Assembly: GCA_021846945.1 (NCBI GenBank)
Contig: JAJZVZ010000002.1
Location: 32,815-96,814 of the forward strand
From: Acidobacteriota bacterium
GTDB taxonomy: Bacteria > Acidobacteriota > Terriglobia > Terriglobales > Acidobacteriaceae
Direction of reading: 5' to 3'
Length of the DNA: 64,000 nucleotides
In this document: positions 15,984 to 55,380 of the stretch, one piece after another
Layout: each line of letters begins with the position of its first letter
Numbering within the stretch: position 1 is the first letter of the stretch
Made by a program: the position numbers and the translations under genes
The notes under the pieces: model-generated
Database searches by the model: none
Seen by the model: only the letters and a program-made list of their open reading frames with translations
Told to the model about the DNA's origin: nothing

Positions 15984-16520
15984 TCACAGTCCCCGGCGCG
16001 TCTTGAACTCCGCTCCAATTGCCGTAAGGTCGCTCTGGCCGAGGGCATGCGCCGCGCAGGGAAATATAACATCCTCTTCGAGGTGGATATGCCCGCCGTA
16101 GATGCCCTGCAATTGCTCTGTAATCGATAGCAGCTGGCTCTCATCGTCCGTGGCCAGGCCGCGCTCGGCAACCCACTTCGAGTAGAGCCTGTCCGCTTCT
16201 TCGTGCAGAGCTTTTGTCTCCCGGTGCTCAGCCTCCAGCCTGTGCACATCGTCGCTCACTGCCGGCACCTGCCTGCAGAGCAGCCGTGGAAACAGCGACT
16301 CTTCCTCATCCAGGTTGTGGCGCGGGCCCGACTCGCGGAAGTAAGCCAGGGCGGCTTCGACCGCGCGCCGTTCCTCGGTGTCCAGCTCCCGGCCCCTGGC
16401 CTGTTTCACCACCTTGCACAAAATATCGAGGAAGCGTTCAATCCTGCGATGACAATCCTTGAGCATTCCGATCGGGTCATCGAATCCACTGTCCGGCTTG
16501 GCTCCAATTTGAATTGCCAT
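15984..16520 (-). CDS. Hemerythrin-domain (HHE) protein
   Basis: 178 aa; DCHRRIERF, RHNLDEEESLFPRL, EAEHRETKALHEE, HIHLEEDVIFP diiron ligand pattern. Confidence 0.85.
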   Translation of the reverse strand: MAIQIGAKPDSGFDDPIGMLKDCHRRIERFLDILCKVVKQARGRELDTEERRAVEAALAYFRESGPRHNLDEEESLFPRLLCRQVPAVSDDVHRLEAEHRETKALHEEADRLYSKWVAERGLATDDESQLLSITEQLQGIYGGHIHLEEDVIFPCAAHALGQSDLTAIGAEFKTRRGL

Positions 16521-16542
16521 GATATACCTCCGCTTTCATTTT

Positions 16543-17712
16543 CTACGCTCCCTGCAAAACATGCAGCGTGGGCACCCGCCGGGCCGCCTGCGGAGGCTTC
16601 ACATATCCGCGAGGAATGTGGACGCAGCAAGGCTCCTCGGCCAATGGATCGCCCGTCAGCGCATAGGCACGGGCACGCGAGCCTCCGCAGATCTGCCGGA
16701 ACTCGCAGACTCCGCATTTGCCTTCCAGGCTATCCGGATTTCGCAACTCCTGGAACAATGGCGACTCGCGATAGATCGCCGCCAGCCCCGTCTGGCGGAC
16801 GTTTCCCGCCGAAAGCGGAAGAAATCCGCTCGGAAAGACCTCGCCGGTGTGCGAGATGAAGACGAAGCCCTTGCCGTCGTTGAGCCCGCGCGGCGCGCGC
16901 CCGATGGTGTCGGGCAATTTCTCCGGCGCCGCGGCGGTGACGCCCGCCCGGCGCTGCGCGGCGCGCTGTTGCAGTACGTAGCGCCGGTAGTGCTGCGCCT
17001 CGGTGGTCTTGATGTCGAAAGAAGCCTTTCCCGAAAGCTCAAACAGTCTGGCGAAGACCTGCTCGAACTCCTCCGCGTTTAAGAGATCGGCGAGCTTGCC
17101 GCGGCCGGTGGGCACCAGAAAAAAGACGCTCCACAGGGTGATCTTGAGTTGCTCCATCCGCGCGACCAGGTCGTCGATCTCGCCGATATTTCTGCGGCTG
17201 AAGGTGGTGTTGATCTGCACCGGAAGCTCGGCCTCGTTCGCCCAGCGAATGGCATCGAGCGTGCGCGCAAACGAGCCGGCCATGCCGCGGAAGGCATCGT
17301 GTGTCTCGGCCCGCGCCCCGTCCATGCTGACGGCAAGCCGAGCCAGGCCAGCTTCCTTCAGGCGGAAGATGACCTCCCTTGTCAGCAGCGGAGTAGCGCT
17401 CGGCGTAAGCGATACACGCACCCCTGCCTGCCGCGCATGGGCAATCAGCTCAAAGAGGTCCGGCCGCTTGATGGGGTCGCCACCAGTGAGCACAAAGACC
17501 GGCACTTGCAAAGCGGCAATCTGATCGATCAGGCGCTTTCCTTCTTCCGTACTCAATTCCATGGGATGACGCTCAGGCTGCGCCGAAGCCCGGCAGTGTA
17601 CGCAGGCAAGGTCGCATGCCTGCGTTACTTCCCAGATTGCCAGGAATGGGCGCTCATCAAAATCAACGGCGCCGTAATCAAAGGTATTGATCCGCGGGTT
17701 CATGGTTATCAT
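16543..17712 (-). CDS. Radical SAM/SPASM protein (NirJ/AhbD-like)
   Basis: TQACDLACVHCRAS (CxxxCxxC), FVLTGGDPIKRPDLFELI, C-terminal KCGVCEFRQICGGSRARAYALTGDPLAEEPCCV SPASM-like cluster. Confidence 0.88.
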   Translation of the reverse strand: MITMNPRINTFDYGAVDFDERPFLAIWEVTQACDLACVHCRASAQPERHPMELSTEEGKRLIDQIAALQVPVFVLTGGDPIKRPDLFELIAHARQAGVRVSLTPSATPLLTREVIFRLKEAGLARLAVSMDGARAETHDAFRGMAGSFARTLDAIRWANEAELPVQINTTFSRRNIGEIDDLVARMEQLKITLWSVFFLVPTGRGKLADLLNAEEFEQVFARLFELSGKASFDIKTTEAQHYRRYVLQQRAAQRRAGVTAAAPEKLPDTIGRAPRGLNDGKGFVFISHTGEVFPSGFLPLSAGNVRQTGLAAIYRESPLFQELRNPDSLEGKCGVCEFRQICGGSRARAYALTGDPLAEEPCCVHIPRGYVKPPQAARRVPTLHVLQGA

Positions 17713-17739
17713 CACACCGCGCCGTCGCTTTTCTGTGCA

Positions 17740-17753
17740 GTGACTTAAGTCGC
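17740..17753. promoter_or_regulatory. CRP/FNR-type operator candidate GTGACTTAAGTCGC
   Basis: Semi-palindrome between the divergent rSAM gene and the crp/fnr gene; shared with 18488-18501 and 21032-21045. Confidence 0.6.
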
Positions 17754-17770
17754 GCTGGTAAAATTCCGCC

Positions 17771-18475
17771 GTGAGCGCTGAACGCATCGATCTAGCCGCC
17801 GTCTTGCAGAAGACCGCGCTGTTGTCGAGTCTTTCCCCTTCCGAGCTGCACCTGCTGGCCGCTCGCACCGTCCGCAAGCTGTTCAGCACAGGAGAGTTGC
17901 TGTTTTCAGAGGGCGAACCATGCAATGGCCTGCACATTGTGTCGCGCGGCAAGGTCCGCATCTTCAAGACATCCATGAGCGGCCGCGAACAGGTGCTTGC
18001 CGTCGAAGGCCCCGGCGGTTCCGTGGCGGAGCTACCGGTTTTTGACGGCGGTCCTTATCCGGCATCAGTCATCGCGCTTGAAGACACCGAGATCGCCTAT
18101 ATTTCCCGGCGCGACTTTCAGGCCTTTTGCATGGAGCATCCCGAGGTGGCGCTCAAAGTGCTGGCCGTGGTGGGCGCGCGCCTGCGGAGGCTCGTGGGCA
18201 TTATCGAGGAGCTTTCCTTCACGACCATTCGGCAGCGCCTCGCTTCCACCCTGCTCAAGCTGGCGCAGACTGAGGGCAAAAAGACGCCGCGCGGCGTTGA
18301 GTTCCGCTTGCCGGCCAGTCACCAGGAGATGGCGAATCAGCTTGGCACCGTCCGGGAGCTGATCTCGCGCAACCTCATGCGCCTGCAGGCGGAGGGTCTG
18401 CTCGAGGTGGACGCGCGCCAGGTCATCGTAAAGGACATGAACGGGCTGGCTGCTTTGCTGGAAACTTCCGCGTAA
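17771..18475 (+). CDS. CRP/FNR family transcriptional regulator (DNR/NnrR-like, no N-terminal Fe-S cysteines)
   Basis: cNMP-binding fold GKVRIFKTSMSGREQVLAVEGPG; C-terminal HTH with RELISRNLMRL (ExxSR recognition signature). Confidence 0.9.
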   Translation: MSAERIDLAAVLQKTALLSSLSPSELHLLAARTVRKLFSTGELLFSEGEPCNGLHIVSRGKVRIFKTSMSGREQVLAVEGPGGSVAELPVFDGGPYPASVIALEDTEIAYISRRDFQAFCMEHPEVALKVLAVVGARLRRLVGIIEELSFTTIRQRLASTLLKLAQTEGKKTPRGVEFRLPASHQEMANQLGTVRELISRNLMRLQAEGLLEVDARQVIVKDMNGLAALLETSA

Positions 18476-18487
18476 TCTTTCCGGCTG

Positions 18488-18501
18488 GTGACATAAGTTA
18501 C
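18488..18501. promoter_or_regulatory. CRP/FNR-type operator candidate GTGACATAAGTTAC
   Basis: Read directly; 47 bp upstream of the RIC start codon. Confidence 0.6.
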
Positions 18502-18547
18502 TGCGGCGCGCCGGTACCCCGGCTAGCCTGGTGATGGAGCATACCTC

Positions 18548-19273
18548 ATGACCACCACCAGCAAAGCCCTTCGCGAGATCGCCAGCGAATATCCTTCGTC
18601 GGTTTCCATCTTTGATCGGTTCGGAATCGACCTCTGCGCAATGGGCGAGAAGTCGCTTGCCGAGGCCTGCGCCGTCCTCAGCCTCTCCACGGAGCAGTTG
18701 CAGGAGAAGCTGGCGGAGCTGCATGTCTCTGCGGGCGGCGTCAGCGACCCGGCAGGGCTGACGCTCACGCAGGTCATACAGCGCATCGTGCGCGTGCATC
18801 ACAGGCGTATACGCTACGACCTTCCCGCGTTGGCGGGTATGGCCGCGAAGCTACTCCGCAGGCACCCGAGGCGCGATGAGGAATTTGCTCCGCTCGCACG
18901 CCATATGGAGCACCTGCGCGCACACATGCTGGAACACATCGGACGGGAAGAACAGGTGCTCTTTCCCCTGATTGCGCACATGGAAGAGGATTCGATCGTT
19001 GGCTATCCTGGAGGGGCTGCCTCGCTTCGCTCGATCAGTGAGCCGATCGCCAGGATGAAGCAGGACCACGCAGCCAGCGGCCGCACGATGGACGAGTTAC
19101 GCCGCCATACCAACGATTTCGAGCCGCCGCAACATGCCTGCCCGACGCATCGCGCGCTGCTGGGCGGCATGCGCAGCTTTGTTGAAGATCTGCGCCAGCA
19201 TAAGCATCTTGAAGAAGGCATCCTCTTTCCGCGCGCTTTGACCATGGGAACAGAACTCGCAAGCAGGAGGTAA
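18548..19273 (+). CDS. Iron-sulfur cluster repair di-iron protein (RIC; ScdA/YtfE-like) with variant N-terminal domain
   Basis: DUF542-like IDLCAMGEKSLAEAC followed by HHE-type HH..HMEHLRAHMLEHIGREEQVLFPL..HKHLEEGILFPRAL. Confidence 0.87.
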   Translation: MTTTSKALREIASEYPSSVSIFDRFGIDLCAMGEKSLAEACAVLSLSTEQLQEKLAELHVSAGGVSDPAGLTLTQVIQRIVRVHHRRIRYDLPALAGMAAKLLRRHPRRDEEFAPLARHMEHLRAHMLEHIGREEQVLFPLIAHMEEDSIVGYPGGAASLRSISEPIARMKQDHAASGRTMDELRRHTNDFEPPQHACPTHRALLGGMRSFVEDLRQHKHLEEGILFPRALTMGTELASRR

Positions 19274-19275
19274 CG

Positions 19276-20637
19276 ATGAGCGGGACAACCTTCAGTAATC
19301 CGGGAATCCACGCCGGAGAAAGCACAGCAGCACATGCAATCCTTATCCGCGAGCAGAAAAAGAGCCTGATGCTGCGCGCATGGATTCTGAGCGGCCTCTT
19401 CTTTATGGCGCTGCCCGGCACTCTGCTGGGATTTTCAAACCTCATGGCAATCAGCGCCGGCCATGGCCTGGCCGCATTGCCGGCTACCTTGATCCAGGGG
19501 CACGGTCACGCGCAGATGTTCGGCTGGATCGGCAGCTTCATTCTCGGCATCGGCTTTTACTCACAGCCAGGCAGGTGGAAGAATTTTCTTCGCCTGCAGC
19601 TTGTCTGCTTCGTCCTCTGGACGCTCGGCGTGGCACTGCGCTGGACCGGCAATATCTATGGCTGGCACTGGAGAATTCTTCTGCCGGTTTCAGCAGGATT
19701 GGAACTTGTCGCCATGGCGCTCTTCCTCAGCGCCGCTTCGCGTCATAAGCTCCCTGAGCAGTCGCAGCCCACGGCGCCCAAGCCGAGAGTGGAATTATGG
19801 ATGATTTCAGTTCTGATCGGGACCGTGGGACTCACCGCGGCGATGATCTTCAACTTTGTCGAATGCCTGCGCCTCGGCATGAGCGGCAAGGCCATCTCCT
19901 TTCCCCATGCGCTCGATCAGCGCTATCTGGCGCTGCTTGCATGGGGATTCCTGGTGCCGTTCGTATGGGGATTCTCGGCGCGCTGGCTGCCTTCGTTTCT
20001 CGCCGTTGCCAGGCCCAATGCGCGCCTGATGAAGCTGGCGCTTGGGCTTGATCTCGCCGGAGTCCTGCTGGGCGTCGCCGGTTTCACCCTCACCGCCACG
20101 GTGCTTCTTACGGTAAGCGCGGTGGCCATCGCGATAGCGCTGCAATTGCTGCGGCGCCCGCATGGCGCGGCCAAAGTGCAGGGGATTCATCCCAGCTTCC
20201 CTATTTTTGCGCGCCTTCCGTATGCATGGCTGCTCATCGCCGCCTGTATGAGTATATGGGCAGCTTTGGCCGATGTGCACGGCGGCATCTGGGGCGCTTC
20301 GCGCCATGCTCTGACGGTCGGCTTTGCGGCAGGCATGGTCTTTGCCATCGGCCCGCGCATTCTGCCGCACTTTACAGGCATACGCGCGTTGTTCAGCAAG
20401 CGCCTTATGCTGCTCAGCCTGCTTCTGTTGCAATTGGGCTGCACGCTGCGCGTCTTCTCTGAGCCGCTCGCATACGAAGGCATCGCGCGGTTTGCCTGGA
20501 AGACTCTGCCTATCTCCGGCATGATCGAGTTGAGCGCAGTGCTGGTCTTTGGCGTCAACATGGCGCTGACGGTGGTTCTCGGAAAATCGGCTTTCGCTCA
20601 GGACAACGAGCCCGTGAAACTGGCAAAAGTCTCGTAA
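19276..20637 (+). CDS. nnrS: NnrS family membrane protein
   Basis: 453 aa, about 12 TM; LIQGHGHAQMFGWIGSFILGIGFYSQP and HALTVGFAAGMVFAIGPRILPHFTG are NnrS motifs. Confidence 0.9.
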   Translation: MSGTTFSNPGIHAGESTAAHAILIREQKKSLMLRAWILSGLFFMALPGTLLGFSNLMAISAGHGLAALPATLIQGHGHAQMFGWIGSFILGIGFYSQPGRWKNFLRLQLVCFVLWTLGVALRWTGNIYGWHWRILLPVSAGLELVAMALFLSAASRHKLPEQSQPTAPKPRVELWMISVLIGTVGLTAAMIFNFVECLRLGMSGKAISFPHALDQRYLALLAWGFLVPFVWGFSARWLPSFLAVARPNARLMKLALGLDLAGVLLGVAGFTLTATVLLTVSAVAIAIALQLLRRPHGAAKVQGIHPSFPIFARLPYAWLLIAACMSIWAALADVHGGIWGASRHALTVGFAAGMVFAIGPRILPHFTGIRALFSKRLMLLSLLLLQLGCTLRVFSEPLAYEGIARFAWKTLPISGMIELSAVLVFGVNMALTVVLGKSAFAQDNEPVKLAKVS

Positions 20638-21031
20638 CGAACATGCCTGGAACGTTGTTAGGCGCCCGCCAAAGGCGCAGCTCCAGGCTGCGGATATTTC
20701 AGATATTTTGCCGCAAACGCATAGGCTGCGGAACCGCCCATTCGCATAAGTGCTTTGTGACACGGTAAAGCTTCGGCCGTGCGGTAGACGCAGCGAAGTG
20801 AATGAGAACCTTAGCTGCTGCGCGTCATCACCATTCCTTCTCTCTTGCCCTTTGCTCCTTTCCAGCAACTCGCTTAGAAGTAAGAGCAGCTACGCATAAG
20901 CGGGATAGGTGCATGCAGACATGCGAGCACCGGCTATTGTTCCTAAACGGCAAGACGAACGCGCAGATGTGGCTTCCTGCGCGAGTCAACTCGATCCATT
21001 TCCTCGCGCCAGACCAAAGAAAATGCGCCTT

Positions 21032-21045
21032 GTGACTAAAGTCCC
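21032..21045. promoter_or_regulatory. CRP/FNR-type operator candidate GTGACTAAAGTCCC
   Basis: Read directly; 80 bp upstream of the qNOR start. Confidence 0.5.
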
Positions 21046-21125
21046 TGCATGTCCATTGTCCGCGGCCTACGATCACTGATAGCAGAACGTTGTATTCATC
21101 TCGCACTCGGAATCGAGGATAAGCA

Positions 21126-23417
21126 ATGTCATATAAGCGGTATTGGATGGCTCTCGCCGTCGTCATCATTGCATCATTTGCCGTTCTTGGAGGCGTGGGA
21201 CGGAAGATGATCAGTCAGGCGCCTCCCATTCCCGACGTTTACAACACGAACGGTCAACTTCTCTTCACAGGTAAGTCCATCACCGATGGGCAAGGCGTAT
21301 GGCAGTCCATCGGCGGCCAGGAGATCGGCACAGTATGGGGCCACGGCGCCTACGTCGCGCCCGACTGGAGTGCGGACTGGCTGCATCGCGAGGCCGGCAT
21401 CCTGCTTGACAGCTGGGCGCAGCAGGATGGCGTCACCGGTTTTGCCTCGCTCAACTTCGACCAGCAGGCGATTCTCAAGGCTCGTCTCATTCGCGAAGAG
21501 CGCACCAATACCTACGATGCCGCCACCAATCGCGTGACGATCGACGGCGACCGCGCCGCCGCTTTCCAGCAACTGGCCGCATACTATGCGGGCATCTTCG
21601 CCAACGGACGTAAAGACTACGCCATACCTCCCGGAGCACTGACCAATCCGGAAAAGCAAAAGGAACTTGCCGCGTTCTTCTGGTGGACGGCCTGGGCTGC
21701 AACCACTGATCGCCCCGGTTCCACTGTGACTTATACCAATAACTGGCCCCATGAGCCTCTGGTCGCCAACGAACCGACGACCGGCGCTGTCTTGTGGAGC
21801 ATCGTCAGCTTTGTCTGCCTGCTCGCCGGCATTGGCGGTCTGGTGTGGTGGTATCAATCGCAGGAGAAATCGCCGGTGCACGGACCTTATCCGGCGCGGG
21901 ATCCCTTCCTTGGCGCGAAGCCAACTCCCTCGCAGCGCGCCACTATTAAATACTTCGTCGTGGTAATGCTCCTTTGGGCCGTGCAAATACTGATGGGTGT
22001 CATTACCGCTCACTATGGAGTAGAAGGCCAGGGCTTCTACGGCTTTCCGCTCGATAAGTACCTGCCTTATGCAATCACGCGCACATGGCACTTGCAGTTA
22101 GCCATCTTCTGGATTGCTACTTCGTGGCTGGCGACCGGCCTCTATGTAGGCCCGGCGATCAGTGGCCGGGAGCCGAAGTATCAGCGGCTCGGCGTGAATG
22201 TCCTCTTCGTCGCGCTGATTCTGGTTGTCGGCGGATCGATGGCCGGCGAATGGCTCGGCATCCAGCAACGGCTCGGCAATCTCTGGTTCTGGTTTGGCAG
22301 TCAGGGTTTCGAGTATGTGGACCTTGGCCGCTTCTGGCAGATCCTGCTCTTCATCGGACTGGTGCTCTGGCTGGTGCTTATGGTGCGCGCGCTCAAGCCT
22401 GCTCTATCGCTCAAGAGTGAAGATCGTCCGCTGCTTTCGCTCTTCCTGGTTTCCAGCGTCGCCATTCCGCTCTTTTACGCCGCGGGCCTGATGTATGGGC
22501 AGCGCAGCAATCTGGTTACCGCCGAATACTGGCGCTGGTGGGTCGTTCACCTGTGGGTTGAAGGATTCTTCGAAGTCTTTGCCACCGTGGTGATCGCATT
22601 CCTCTTCACGCGGCTCAAGCTGCTTGAGATTCGCAGTGCCACGCGGTCCGTACTGTTTTCTACCACCGTCTTTCTTGCCGGTGGCATTATCGGTACTTTC
22701 CATCACCTCTACTTTGCCGGTTCCGGAGCCGCGGTGATCGCCTTCGGCGCAGTCTTCAGCGCGTTGGAAGTCGTGCCGCTCACTCTCATTGGCTACGAGG
22801 CATGGGAGAATCTGCGCCTGACGCGTCCTACTGCGAAGGCCCGCTGGATTGCAAATTACAAGTGGCCGATCTACTTCTTCGTAGCCGTCGCCTTCTGGAA
22901 CCTTGTGGGAGCAGGGCTTTTCGGCTTCCTCATTAATCCGCCCATCGCGCTCTACTACATGCAGGGCCTCAACCTGACTCCCGTGCACGGCCACACTGCT
23001 CTCTTCGGCGTCTACGGCATGTTGGGCCTGGGTCTCACGCTCTTCTGCCTGCGTGTTCTTCAGCCCGGGCGGCCTTGGAAAGAAGGCATGTTGAAGGCGT
23101 CCTTCTGGCTCATCAACATTGGCCTTGTCTTCATGGTTGTCCTCAGCATGTTGCCCATCGGGCTGATGCAGGCGTGGGCTTCCATCGGGCGCGGCACCTG
23201 GTACGCGCGCTCGGCGGAGTTTCTGCAAACCGACACGATGCAAACTCTGCGCTGGATGCGTGTCCCGGGCGATATTCTCTTTGCGATTGGCGCCGCGCTG
23301 CTGGGTTGGTTTGTCCTCGGGCTGCTGACCGGCCACTCGTACGCCAGTAAGGAGTCGAACTTCGATAAGACGCCGCATAGTGAAGACACCGAAGAATCCA
23401 AGCTGGCGGTAGCTTAA
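21126..23417 (+). CDS. norZ: Quinol-dependent nitric oxide reductase (single-subunit qNOR)
   Basis: 763 aa; N-terminal GQGVWQSIGGQEIGTVWGHGAYVAPDWSADWLHRE, then heme-copper core HLWVEGFFEVFATVVIAFLF, GTFHHLYFAG, TPVHGHTALFGVYG. Confidence 0.94.
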   Translation: MSYKRYWMALAVVIIASFAVLGGVGRKMISQAPPIPDVYNTNGQLLFTGKSITDGQGVWQSIGGQEIGTVWGHGAYVAPDWSADWLHREAGILLDSWAQQDGVTGFASLNFDQQAILKARLIREERTNTYDAATNRVTIDGDRAAAFQQLAAYYAGIFANGRKDYAIPPGALTNPEKQKELAAFFWWTAWAATTDRPGSTVTYTNNWPHEPLVANEPTTGAVLWSIVSFVCLLAGIGGLVWWYQSQEKSPVHGPYPARDPFLGAKPTPSQRATIKYFVVVMLLWAVQILMGVITAHYGVEGQGFYGFPLDKYLPYAITRTWHLQLAIFWIATSWLATGLYVGPAISGREPKYQRLGVNVLFVALILVVGGSMAGEWLGIQQRLGNLWFWFGSQGFEYVDLGRFWQILLFIGLVLWLVLMVRALKPALSLKSEDRPLLSLFLVSSVAIPLFYAAGLMYGQRSNLVTAEYWRWWVVHLWVEGFFEVFATVVIAFLFTRLKLLEIRSATRSVLFSTTVFLAGGIIGTFHHLYFAGSGAAVIAFGAVFSALEVVPLTLIGYEAWENLRLTRPTAKARWIANYKWPIYFFVAVAFWNLVGAGLFGFLINPPIALYYMQGLNLTPVHGHTALFGVYGMLGLGLTLFCLRVLQPGRPWKEGMLKASFWLINIGLVFMVVLSMLPIGLMQAWASIGRGTWYARSAEFLQTDTMQTLRWMRVPGDILFAIGAALLGWFVLGLLTGHSYASKESNFDKTPHSEDTEESKLAVA

Positions 23418-52279: not shown

Positions 52280-52501
52280 GGCGGCATGGTTTTTGCAGCG
52301 GCCCTTCGTCACTCAAGCAAAATGCTGGACTTATCGCGAACCGTCTCACCCGCGAGGGCGAGATGGTTCCATCTGATGGGACTCAAAGGGGTTACCAATT
52401 GATCGCTTCATGAGACGCGAAACCTCTGGAGTGACTATAATCACCTTGAAGCGTGAAAAGAACTCCGCTTAACTGAATTTACTTGAAGGGAATCCCGCCA
52501 A

Positions 52502-54343
52502 ATGGCGACTGGAGACCTAGCCCTGGGTCAAGAACAGGGCCAATCGAGTGCGCGCCAGCGCGTTGTCAATGATTTCAGCATCATAGTAGCAACGGTGAAC
52601 GGTTCCGGCTCGCAATCCGCCAATAGCGTGCTGCTGAAAAGCATCTTTGGAATGGGGGTTCCGGTCAGCGGAAAAAACCTCTTTCCTTCGAACATTGCCG
52701 GTCTACCAACCTGGTACACCATTCGTGCCAGCAAAGATGGATATGTGGCCCGCAGACGTGACTGCGCGGTGCTGGTGGCGCTGAATCCCGAAACGGCGCG
52801 CCAGGACGTGCTGAATCTGCCCGTGGGCGGCGTAGCCATCTACGAAGAAAATCTGAACCTGAAGCAATACCGCGACGATATCGTCGCCTACCCGGTCCCA
52901 TTCGACAAGCTCACCGCATCGATCTGCCCCGAGGCCAAGCTGCGCAAGCTGGTCAAGAACATGGTTTATGTGGGCGTGGTGGCGCAGTTGCTCTCGATCG
53001 ATTTGACCGTGGTGGAGAAGGGCCTGCGCAAGCAGTTTGCCAAGAAGCAGAAGGTCTTCGACTTGAACTTCGGCGCGGTGAAGGCTGGCTTCGACTATGC
53101 CCAGCAGAACTTCACCAAGCAGGATCCGTACTTCATCGAGCCGATGAAGGCGACGGCCGGCAAGATCATCATCGACGGCAACGCGGCGTGCGGAATGGGC
53201 GCGGTGTTCGCGGGCGTCACGGTGGTTGCGTGGTATCCCATCACTCCTTCAACTTCACTGGTGGAAGCGACCACCGACTTGTTGAAGAAGTTGCGCGTGA
53301 CTCCCGACGGCAAGGCTACTTTCGCTGTGGTGCAGGCCGAAGACGAGCTGGCCGCCATCGGCATGGTGCTGGGTGCCGGTTGGGCAGGAGCGCGCTCCAT
53401 GACGGCGACCTCCGGTCCGGGCATCTCGCTGATGGCCGAGTTCTCCGGCTTGGGCTACTTTGCGGAGCTTCCCGGCGTGATCTTCGACGTGCAGCGCAGC
53501 GGTCCTTCGACGGGCATGCCGACGCGCACTTCGCAGGCCGACATTCTTTCCACGGCGTTTCTTTCGCACGGCGACACGAAGCATGTGCTTCTGCTGCCCG
53601 GGAATGTGAAGGAGTGTTTTGAGTTCGGTTGCGAGGCCTTCGACCTGACGGAGCGCCTGCAGACGCCGGTCTTTGTGCTTACCGATCTCGATCTGGGCAT
53701 GAATAACTGGATGTCAGATCCGTTCACGTATCCTGAAAGGCCGCTGGACCGCGGCAAGGTTCTCACTGCTGAAGACCTCGAACGTCTGGGCGGATTCGCA
53801 CGGTATCGCGATGTGGACGGCGACGGCATCGGCTGGCGTACCCTGCCGGGCACGAAGCATCCCAAGGCCGCGTACTTCACGCGCGGTTCCGGACACAACG
53901 ATGCCGCCGGCTATACCGAAAAGCCGGATGAGTATCAGGCGGTGATGGACCGGCTGGCGCGCAAGTTTGAGAACGCGCGCGCACTGGTTCCCGCTCCGGT
54001 CGCGGTGAAGAACGGCAGTTCGAAGGTTGGCTTCCTCGCCTACGGCACCACCGACTTCGCCATGCGCGAGAGCATGGACGAGATCAAGAAGGGATACGGG
54101 CGCGACGTGGATTACATGCGCATCCGGGCATATCCCTTCGCGCAGGAGATTCACGACTTCATCGCATCGCATGAGCGCGTCTACGTGGTGGAGCAGGACC
54201 GCGACGCGCAACTGGCCTCGCTGCTCAAGCTCGATCTGCCCGCCGAACAGGCAACAAAGCTGCGCAGCATCCTGCACTATAACGGGCTGCCGATCGATGC
54301 TCGTTCGATCACCGAAGAGTTTGCGACGAAGGAGGGCCTCTAA
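52502..54343 (+). CDS. korA: 2-oxoacid:acceptor oxidoreductase, fused gamma-alpha subunit
   Basis: 613 aa; WYPITPSTSLVEATTD, QAEDELAAIGMVLGAGWAGARSMTATSGPGISLMAE, QRSGPSTGMPTRTSQAD. Confidence 0.93.
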   Translation: MATGDLALGQEQGQSSARQRVVNDFSIIVATVNGSGSQSANSVLLKSIFGMGVPVSGKNLFPSNIAGLPTWYTIRASKDGYVARRRDCAVLVALNPETARQDVLNLPVGGVAIYEENLNLKQYRDDIVAYPVPFDKLTASICPEAKLRKLVKNMVYVGVVAQLLSIDLTVVEKGLRKQFAKKQKVFDLNFGAVKAGFDYAQQNFTKQDPYFIEPMKATAGKIIIDGNAACGMGAVFAGVTVVAWYPITPSTSLVEATTDLLKKLRVTPDGKATFAVVQAEDELAAIGMVLGAGWAGARSMTATSGPGISLMAEFSGLGYFAELPGVIFDVQRSGPSTGMPTRTSQADILSTAFLSHGDTKHVLLLPGNVKECFEFGCEAFDLTERLQTPVFVLTDLDLGMNNWMSDPFTYPERPLDRGKVLTAEDLERLGGFARYRDVDGDGIGWRTLPGTKHPKAAYFTRGSGHNDAAGYTEKPDEYQAVMDRLARKFENARALVPAPVAVKNGSSKVGFLAYGTTDFAMRESMDEIKKGYGRDVDYMRIRAYPFAQEIHDFIASHERVYVVEQDRDAQLASLLKLDLPAEQATKLRSILHYNGLPIDARSITEEFATKEGL

Positions 54344-55380
54344 TGGCAACCGCAACACCCAATCCTAAAGTGAACTACATCGGCCTTCCGATTACTGATT
54401 ACCGTGGAGGCAAGTCGACGCTCTGCGCCGGCTGCGGCCACAATGCCATCTCCGAGCGCATTATTGACGCCATGTTCGAGATGGGCGTGGAACCGGAGCG
54501 GGTCATCAAGATGAGCGGCATCGGCTGCTCGTCCAAGAGCCCGGCCTACTTCATGAACCGCTCACACAGCTTCAACAGCGTGCACGGGCGCATGCCGTCG
54601 GTGACCACGGGAGCGGTGCTGGCTAATCACAGCAACATGGCGCTCGGCGTCTCCGGCGACGGCGATACGGCGTCGATCGGCATCGGCCAGTTCGTCCACC
54701 TGATGCGCCGCAATCTGCCGATGATTTACATCATCGAGGACAATGGCGTCTACGGGTTGACGAAAGGCCAATTCTCAGCCACGGCCGACATTGGCTCCAA
54801 GCTTAAGACCGGCGTCATCAACGACCTGCCGGCGATTGATACCTGCGCTCTGGCCATTCAGTTGGGAGCAACCTTTGTGGGCCGCTCGTTCTCCGGCGAC
54901 AAAAAGCAGTTGCTGACGATGCTGAAGGCGGCAATCGCCCACAAGGGCACGGTGATGCTTGACGTGATCAGCCCTTGCGTGACCTTCAACGACCACGAAG
55001 GATCCACCAAGAGCTACAAATTCATGCAGGAGTACGACGAGCCGATTAACGAGGTTGGATTCATCCCCAGCTTCCAGGAGATCGACGTAGACTACGACTC
55101 CGGCCAGGTGTACGACGTGCAGATGCACGACGGCTCCAACCTGCGCCTGCGCAAGCTGCGTGAGGACTATGATCCTACCGACAAGGCAAACGCGGTGCGC
55201 ACGCTGATGGAGGCGCATGAGAACAACGAGGTTCTAACTGGTGTCTTCTACATCAACACACAGCAGCCCACGTTTATCGATCTGCTGAATTTGGTGGATG
55301 AGCCTCTGGCTACGCTGCCCGAGTCACTGACCCGTCCGCCGAAGTCGGCGCTGGGCGCACTGATGACGAATCTGCAGTAG
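54343..55380 (+). CDS. korB: 2-oxoacid:ferredoxin oxidoreductase beta subunit
   Basis: STLCAGCGHNAISERI; KMSGIGCSSKSPAYF; SGDGDTASIGIGQFVH TPP motif. Confidence 0.94.
   Translation: MATATPNPKVNYIGLPITDYRGGKSTLCAGCGHNAISERIIDAMFEMGVEPERVIKMSGIGCSSKSPAYFMNRSHSFNSVHGRMPSVTTGAVLANHSNMALGVSGDGDTASIGIGQFVHLMRRNLPMIYIIEDNGVYGLTKGQFSATADIGSKLKTGVINDLPAIDTCALAIQLGATFVGRSFSGDKKQLLTMLKAAIAHKGTVMLDVISPCVTFNDHEGSTKSYKFMQEYDEPINEVGFIPSFQEIDVDYDSGQVYDVQMHDGSNLRLRKLREDYDPTDKANAVRTLMEAHENNEVLTGVFYINTQQPTFIDLLNLVDEPLATLPESLTRPPKSALGALMTNLQ

Follow-up and report, generated by a model that had tools for sequence, protein, structure and literature searches.

Bacteria that make heme by the coproporphyrin route finish it with ChdC, an enzyme that needs peroxide and whose presence is a marker of the route through coproheme. 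The enzyme for the oxygen-independent last step of this pathway was called unknown in a 2024 paper (PMC10965808). The archaeal AhbD of Methanosarcina barkeri, a radical S-adenosylmethionine (SAM) protein, produces heme from iron-coproporphyrin III in vitro and carries two [4Fe-4S] clusters (PMC3942049). In Haloferax volcanii, ahbD (HVO_2144) adjoins nirK, halocyanin and norB, and its mutant loses only anaerobic (denitrifying) growth, which protoheme restores (PMC5746218). A passage in PMC10548856, citing Dailey 2015, already notes AhbD beside hemY, hemH and hemQ in some genomes. Here we analyse a 64,000-nucleotide stretch of DNA (the window) on contig C177 (JAJZVZ010000002.1) of a 5.3 Mb, 99% complete draft genome of an Acidobacteriota bacterium. 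It contains a radical SAM/SPASM gene next to genes for a hemerythrin, a Crp/Fnr-family regulator, the iron–sulfur repair protein RIC, an NnrS-like membrane protein and a quinol-dependent nitric oxide reductase (qNOR).

We propose that this locus is probably a nitric oxide (NO) and low-oxygen regulon with its own heme-supply enzyme, in which the radical SAM protein would act as an oxygen-independent coproheme decarboxylase feeding heme b to qNOR. The Crp-type regulator would switch on the radical SAM, RIC, NnrS-like and qNOR genes in response to NO or hypoxia, as their common upstream sites suggest. With a catalytic and an auxiliary [4Fe-4S] cluster, the radical SAM protein would decarboxylate coproheme III, turning the two propionates into vinyls, and so form heme b with neither O2 nor H2O2. 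It would thus end the coproporphyrin-dependent pathway (HemY/CgoX, HemH/CpfC) at low O2 or high NO, conditions under which ChdC, with its need for peroxide, should become limiting. In this way it would provide heme for qNOR and perhaps also for the NnrS-like protein; RIC would repair iron–sulfur clusters, the likely role of the hemerythrin is to bind O2 or NO or to buffer iron, and a second gene of the same family may do the same job beside a cytochrome bd oxidase. An earlier note on this DNA had suggested a 'heme-repair' or 'additional NO-defence branch', which is unsupported as written; the evidence favours de novo synthesis of heme b.

The radical SAM protein is a member of TIGR04053, a curated NCBIfam family without an assigned function, which we did not find named in the literature. 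It scores 492 bits against this model (cut-off 395), 362 against AhbD (TIGR04545), 229 against NirJ2 and 184 against NirJ. In a maximum-likelihood tree, the TIGR04053 clade (100/99, 41 rows) is sister to AhbD-type proteins (94/86), and AhbC/NirJ1 forms a separate clade (100/100). All three groups have the Fe–S motifs CX3CX2C (C34, C38 and C41 here) and CX2CX5CX20C (C334, C337, C343 and C364), and 17 further conserved residues are common to TIGR04053 and AhbD and not to AhbC/NirJ1. The earlier assignment of the protein to the heme type stands.

The neighbourhoods of other family members point to the same chemistry. In two loci from other Acidobacteriota (L107 and L120), TIGR04053 comes third, behind an NirJ1/AhbC-like radical SAM gene and a fused AhbA–AhbB siroheme decarboxylase, which is the slot of AhbD; a further locus (L112) has a siroheme-decarboxylase-like middle gene like theirs. 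In eight loci (L024, L078, L087, L088, L091, L103, L104 and L110), which include a paralogue in the same genome and one haloarchaeal operon, hemY/cgoX lies near TIGR04053. The H. larsenii gene that is syntenic with H. volcanii ahbD is itself a TIGR04053 member, at 501.6 bits. The genome studied here encodes ChdC, HemY and HemH, with ChdC away from the locus; AhbA/B (PF17805) was not found in it and was found in relatives, and its HemN-like match lies far below the cut-off. Among 297 Acidobacteriota genomes, ChdC occurs in 34 of the 35 with TIGR04053 and in 74 of the 262 without it (Fisher p 6e-16), in a count whose genomes are related and not independent of one another and in which nine of the 34 matches are weak (40-54 bits); with strong matches only the figures are 25/35 and 60/262 (p 2e-8), and collapsed to families they are 17/18 and 13/62 (p 1.7e-8).

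These two features of the count weigh against a decarboxylase role, as do several other observations. The protein falls below the AhbD equivalog cut-off of 500 bits. Where AhbD has cysteines 239, 296 and 346, TIGR04053 has E, S and S (30/30 versus 10/10), and the GGEP of AhbD (10/10) is GGDP (30/30); haloarchaeal TIGR04053 members carry the same TIGR04053-type residues at these four positions. We infer the membership of HVO_2144 in TIGR04053 from synteny with H. larsenii. Across the Acidobacteriota, qNOR is not associated with TIGR04053 (10/35 versus 86/262, p 0.70), so that the pairing with NO genes is specific to a Terriglobales-type branch, and we do not claim that the family is NO-specific. 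Finally, all evidence for the decarboxylase role is comparative, and to our knowledge no TIGR04053 protein has been assayed. On the evidence, the radical SAM protein appears to work like AhbD and is not AhbD by the curated model.

The altered cysteines and GGEP motif would also suit an enzyme that serves qNOR or the NnrS-like protein by making a special heme or repairing an NO-damaged one, and not by making ordinary heme b, as would the branch-specific pairing with qNOR and a protein of heme-copper fold, and the presence in the genome of ChdC for heme b. We consider this unlikely. Elsewhere, TIGR04053 genes sit in Ahb operons or by hemY, cydAB, cytochrome c assembly or multiheme cytochrome genes without NO genes, contexts that suit general heme b supply, and qNORs are established to use heme b. 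The second TIGR04053 gene of this genome (contig C308, L104:3867-9546) lies with hemY, cydA and cydB within 6 kb, an arrangement of TIGR04053, cydAB and hemY/cgoX that recurs in L078, L087 and L088; homologues below 61% identity represent this different type of paralogue, with NO genes in 0/4 and cydAB adjacent in 4/5. A third TIGR04053 gene is truncated at a contig end (C228, L105:2-391). A Deinococcus member adjoins siroheme and sulfate-assimilation genes, and further neighbourhoods hold cytochrome c assembly, multiheme cytochrome or RIC genes, which fits heme demand at low oxygen; a few lack a heme link. Less probable again is a role for the TIGR04053 enzyme of this cluster in making a non-b heme (for example, mono-vinyl or otherwise trimmed) from coproheme, dedicated to qNOR or the NnrS-like protein; if true, NO would here be handled with a heme cofactor of a new kind.

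SPASM-type radical SAM proteins often mature peptides, and the best fold matches of ours include PqqE, SkfB and SuiB. Sequence and fold searches of the PDB returned no AhbD structure and had PqqE as the nearest match, and they therefore do not discriminate the substrate; the predicted structure is itself of moderate confidence (predicted local distance difference test, pLDDT, 78.9). Two haloarchaeal TIGR04053 loci carry TIGR03995, a putative radical SAM target of the CGCGG type, which could make the protein a maturase of ribosomally synthesized and post-translationally modified peptides such as these. We give this little credence and rejected it: TIGR03995 was found in 0/60 Acidobacteriaceae genomes searched, this one included, no CGCGG open reading frame (ORF) was found in the window, none is common to the loci, and the heme-pathway context holds throughout. 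The TIGR03995 genes of the haloarchaeal nitric oxide reductase (NOR)/TIGR04053 clusters lie at L102:4956-5255 and L103:1839-2150.

The NO neighbourhood is conserved among close relatives of the radical SAM gene. A survey of 84,980 species genomes kept 80 loci. Of these, 46 are close homologues, with 71% identity or more and 4 kb or more of upstream sequence, and all come from soil bacteria of the Acidobacteriaceae type. In 44 of them, one or more of crp, RIC, NnrS-like and qNOR lie near the radical SAM gene; individually, NnrS-like neighbours number 39, hemerythrin 37, RIC 36, crp 34 and qNOR 22. The pairing with NO genes in nirS-less genomes that the earlier note proposed to look for by such a survey is thus borne out. 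Gene order is shuffled between loci (for example, L011, L041 and L048) with the gene set retained, and its recurrence across the Acidobacteriaceae indicates that the six-gene arrangement is not due to chance. A neighbourhood kept by common descent around a passenger with no function in NO or heme metabolism is very improbable: the survey lies within one order and qNOR does not co-occur phylum-wide, but order is rearranged while gene set and palindrome persist, and NOR or nir genes adjoin TIGR04053 in Thermus and haloarchaea, independently of the Acidobacteriaceae.

A GTGAC-N4-GTCAC palindrome stands between the radical SAM and crp genes, before RIC and before qNOR (Table 1), bearing out the claim that the radical SAM gene has a predicted palindromic operator in common with RIC and qNOR. 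The pattern GTGACNWAAGTYNC matches precisely these three sites in 64 kb against 0.01 expected, a statistic that is not independent because the pattern was picked after seeing the sites. Enrichment over the 80 loci is the stronger test: when a single mismatch is tolerated, the motif occurs about 20-fold more densely between genes than within them (0.92 versus 0.045 per kb), and it occurs within 200 bp upstream of the radical SAM gene in 39 of the 46 close loci. Elsewhere in the genome, it stands before three further RIC genes (contigs C303, C61 and C251) and one site lies near a NirK gene on C213. We infer that the adjacent Crp protein binds the palindrome and coordinates these genes, activating or repressing them. 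A search for DNR/FNR-like sites, TTG[AC]-N6-[TG]CAA, found nothing convincing at the locus, with one match within the radical SAM gene and one distant. Also in the window, a two-subunit 2-oxoacid:ferredoxin oxidoreductase (52502-55380; region 52431-55380) has a weaker palindrome, GTGACTATAATCAC, upstream of it and might provide low-potential electrons within the same regulon. On C303 (L158:4047-7155), the RIC gene is followed by a gene for a 726-amino-acid (aa) radical SAM protein that is related to the tetraether lipid synthase Tes, at 312 bits against a cut-off of 450, and the GTGAC palindrome has two matches nearby.

The description of this bacterium as a 'non-denitrifier' is unsafe, as two proteins encoded elsewhere in the genome exceed the NirK cut-off of 296.3 bits, at 307 and 303 bits (C170:1367-2272 and C213:4228-5127; L166 and L167), the one on C213 with a C-terminal plastocyanin-like domain. 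With two NirK genes, NO may come from the cell's own nitrite reduction, and the two proteins suggest partial denitrification to N2O, which would be relevant to N2O production by the abundant soil Acidobacteria. In earlier genome work on Acidobacteria (PMC5900883), one strain was reported to have nirK and others norZ, whereas nirS was reported in none. The earlier view that the radical SAM protein does not serve cytochrome cd1 holds, in that nirS was not found anywhere in this genome, and a NirJ-like role in making heme d1 or a d1-like heme, to which the NirJ kinship and a Thermus homologue beside a gene annotated as nitrite reductase might point, is barely credible and largely refuted by that result, by the single weak partial PF02239 match in 60 family genomes, by the failure to find NirDLGH/AhbAB in this genome, by the closer kinship with AhbD and by haloarchaeal members that adjoin copper nirK.

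Table 1. The six genes and three predicted operators of the locus, in window coordinates.
Feature	Position	Strand	Evidence
Hemerythrin HHE-domain protein	15984-16520	-	PF01814 1.7e-16; directly downstream of radical SAM gene
Radical SAM/SPASM protein, TIGR04053, putative AhbD-type coproheme decarboxylase	16543-17712	-	TIGR04053 492 bits
Palindromic operator (predicted) GTGACTTAAGTCGC	17740-17753	.	Between radical SAM gene and crp
Crp/Fnr-family regulator	17771-18475	+	PF00027 and PF13545
Palindromic operator (predicted) GTGACATAAGTTAC	18488-18501	.	Upstream of RIC
RIC/YtfE/ScdA-type di-iron iron–sulfur cluster repair protein	18548-19273	+	PF04405 (ScdA_N) and PF01814
12-helix membrane protein, 'NnrS-like'	19276-20637	+	Predicted heme-copper-oxidase-like fold; invariant H76, H78, H344
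Palindromic operator (predicted) GTGACTAAAGTCCC	21032-21045	.	Upstream of qNOR
Quinol-dependent nitric oxide reductase (qNOR/NorZ)	21126-23417	+	PF22085 4e-64; COX1 4.5e-63

The six adjacent ORFs, with hemerythrin and radical SAM on the minus strand divergent from crp, RIC, NnrS-like and qNOR, are placed and oriented as first described (Table 1), except for the radical SAM start. This had been set at 17976; gene calling by codon usage gives ATG at 17712 (or GTG at 17715, for a gene at 16543-17715), and the TIGR04053 model begins at residue 104 of the 477-aa ORF. With the start corrected to 17712, the gene does not overlap crp, and the two are cleanly divergent, 58 bases apart. RIC scores 173 bits with TIGR03652 (equivalog cut-off 204.7) and has both its ScdA_N and hemerythrin domains. 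In qNOR, a cytochrome c-like domain is fused N-terminally to NorB, and the protein matches solved qNORs over its full length (E 1e-248). The regulator is Crp-like, without the FNR cysteine cluster; it does match DNR (3dkw, 5e-18), as the label 'DNR-like' implied, but several other Crp-family proteins of solved structure are closer (4e-28).

The name 'NnrS' given to the membrane protein finds little backing in its sequence: it matches no Pfam model up to E 10, the NnrS model PF05940 included, and NCBIfam and plasmid searches also returned nothing. Its AlphaFold model (pLDDT 87.5) has 12 helices in a heme-copper-oxidase-like fold, for which Foldseek returned heme-copper oxidases and cNOR at template modelling (TM) scores of 0.58-0.68 (cbb3 0.66, cNOR 0.58), and His76, His78 and His344 are invariant in an alignment of such proteins. 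We use 'NnrS-like' as a working name, based on residue pattern and context; a family with this predicted fold and no Pfam match may merit its own model.

Compared with known systems, the radical SAM protein is closest to AhbD (TIGR04545; M. barkeri Mbar_A1458), with which it shares the radical SAM/SPASM architecture, both Fe–S motifs, a sister-clade position and, in relatives, the AhbD slot; it differs in its score under the cut-off, in lacking the three AhbD cysteines, in GGDP for GGEP and, here, in standing without AhbABC. The H. volcanii AhbD (HVO_2144) resembles it through the syntenic TIGR04053 gene of H. larsenii, a denitrification/NOR neighbourhood and a host that also has ChdC (PitA), whereas haloarchaea also have AhbAB/C, use another regulator and palindrome (CGAA-N4-TTCG), and lack RIC or Crp there. 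ChdC/HemQ would catalyse the same reaction as proposed here, coproheme III to heme b, with an unrelated fold and dependence on H2O2 (PMC10965808). NirJ (heme d1) and AhbC are homologous radical SAM/SPASM enzymes acting on iron tetrapyrroles, but AhbC/NirJ1 belongs to its separate clade and no NirJ/AhbC partner genes occur here. NO clusters (RIC, NnrS, NOR) controlled by DNR/NnrR likewise place RIC and NOR under one palindrome and a Crp/Fnr regulator; the half-site here is GTGAC where theirs is TTGAC/TTGAT (TTGAC-N4-GTCAA-type), the regulator is nearer to other Crp proteins, and a proposed heme-synthesis radical SAM gene is included. AhbD-type chemistry, AhbD–hemQ co-localization and NO clusters are thus each known separately. 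Two things appear to be new: that TIGR04053, a family whose residues differ consistently from those of AhbD, is assigned to the step that ends the coproporphyrin pathway without oxygen, and that it is packaged under a common operator with qNOR or, in the case of the paralogue, with cytochrome bd. A large family without prior function would thereby gain a role, packaged with just those heme enzymes that are required when NO is present or O2 is low.

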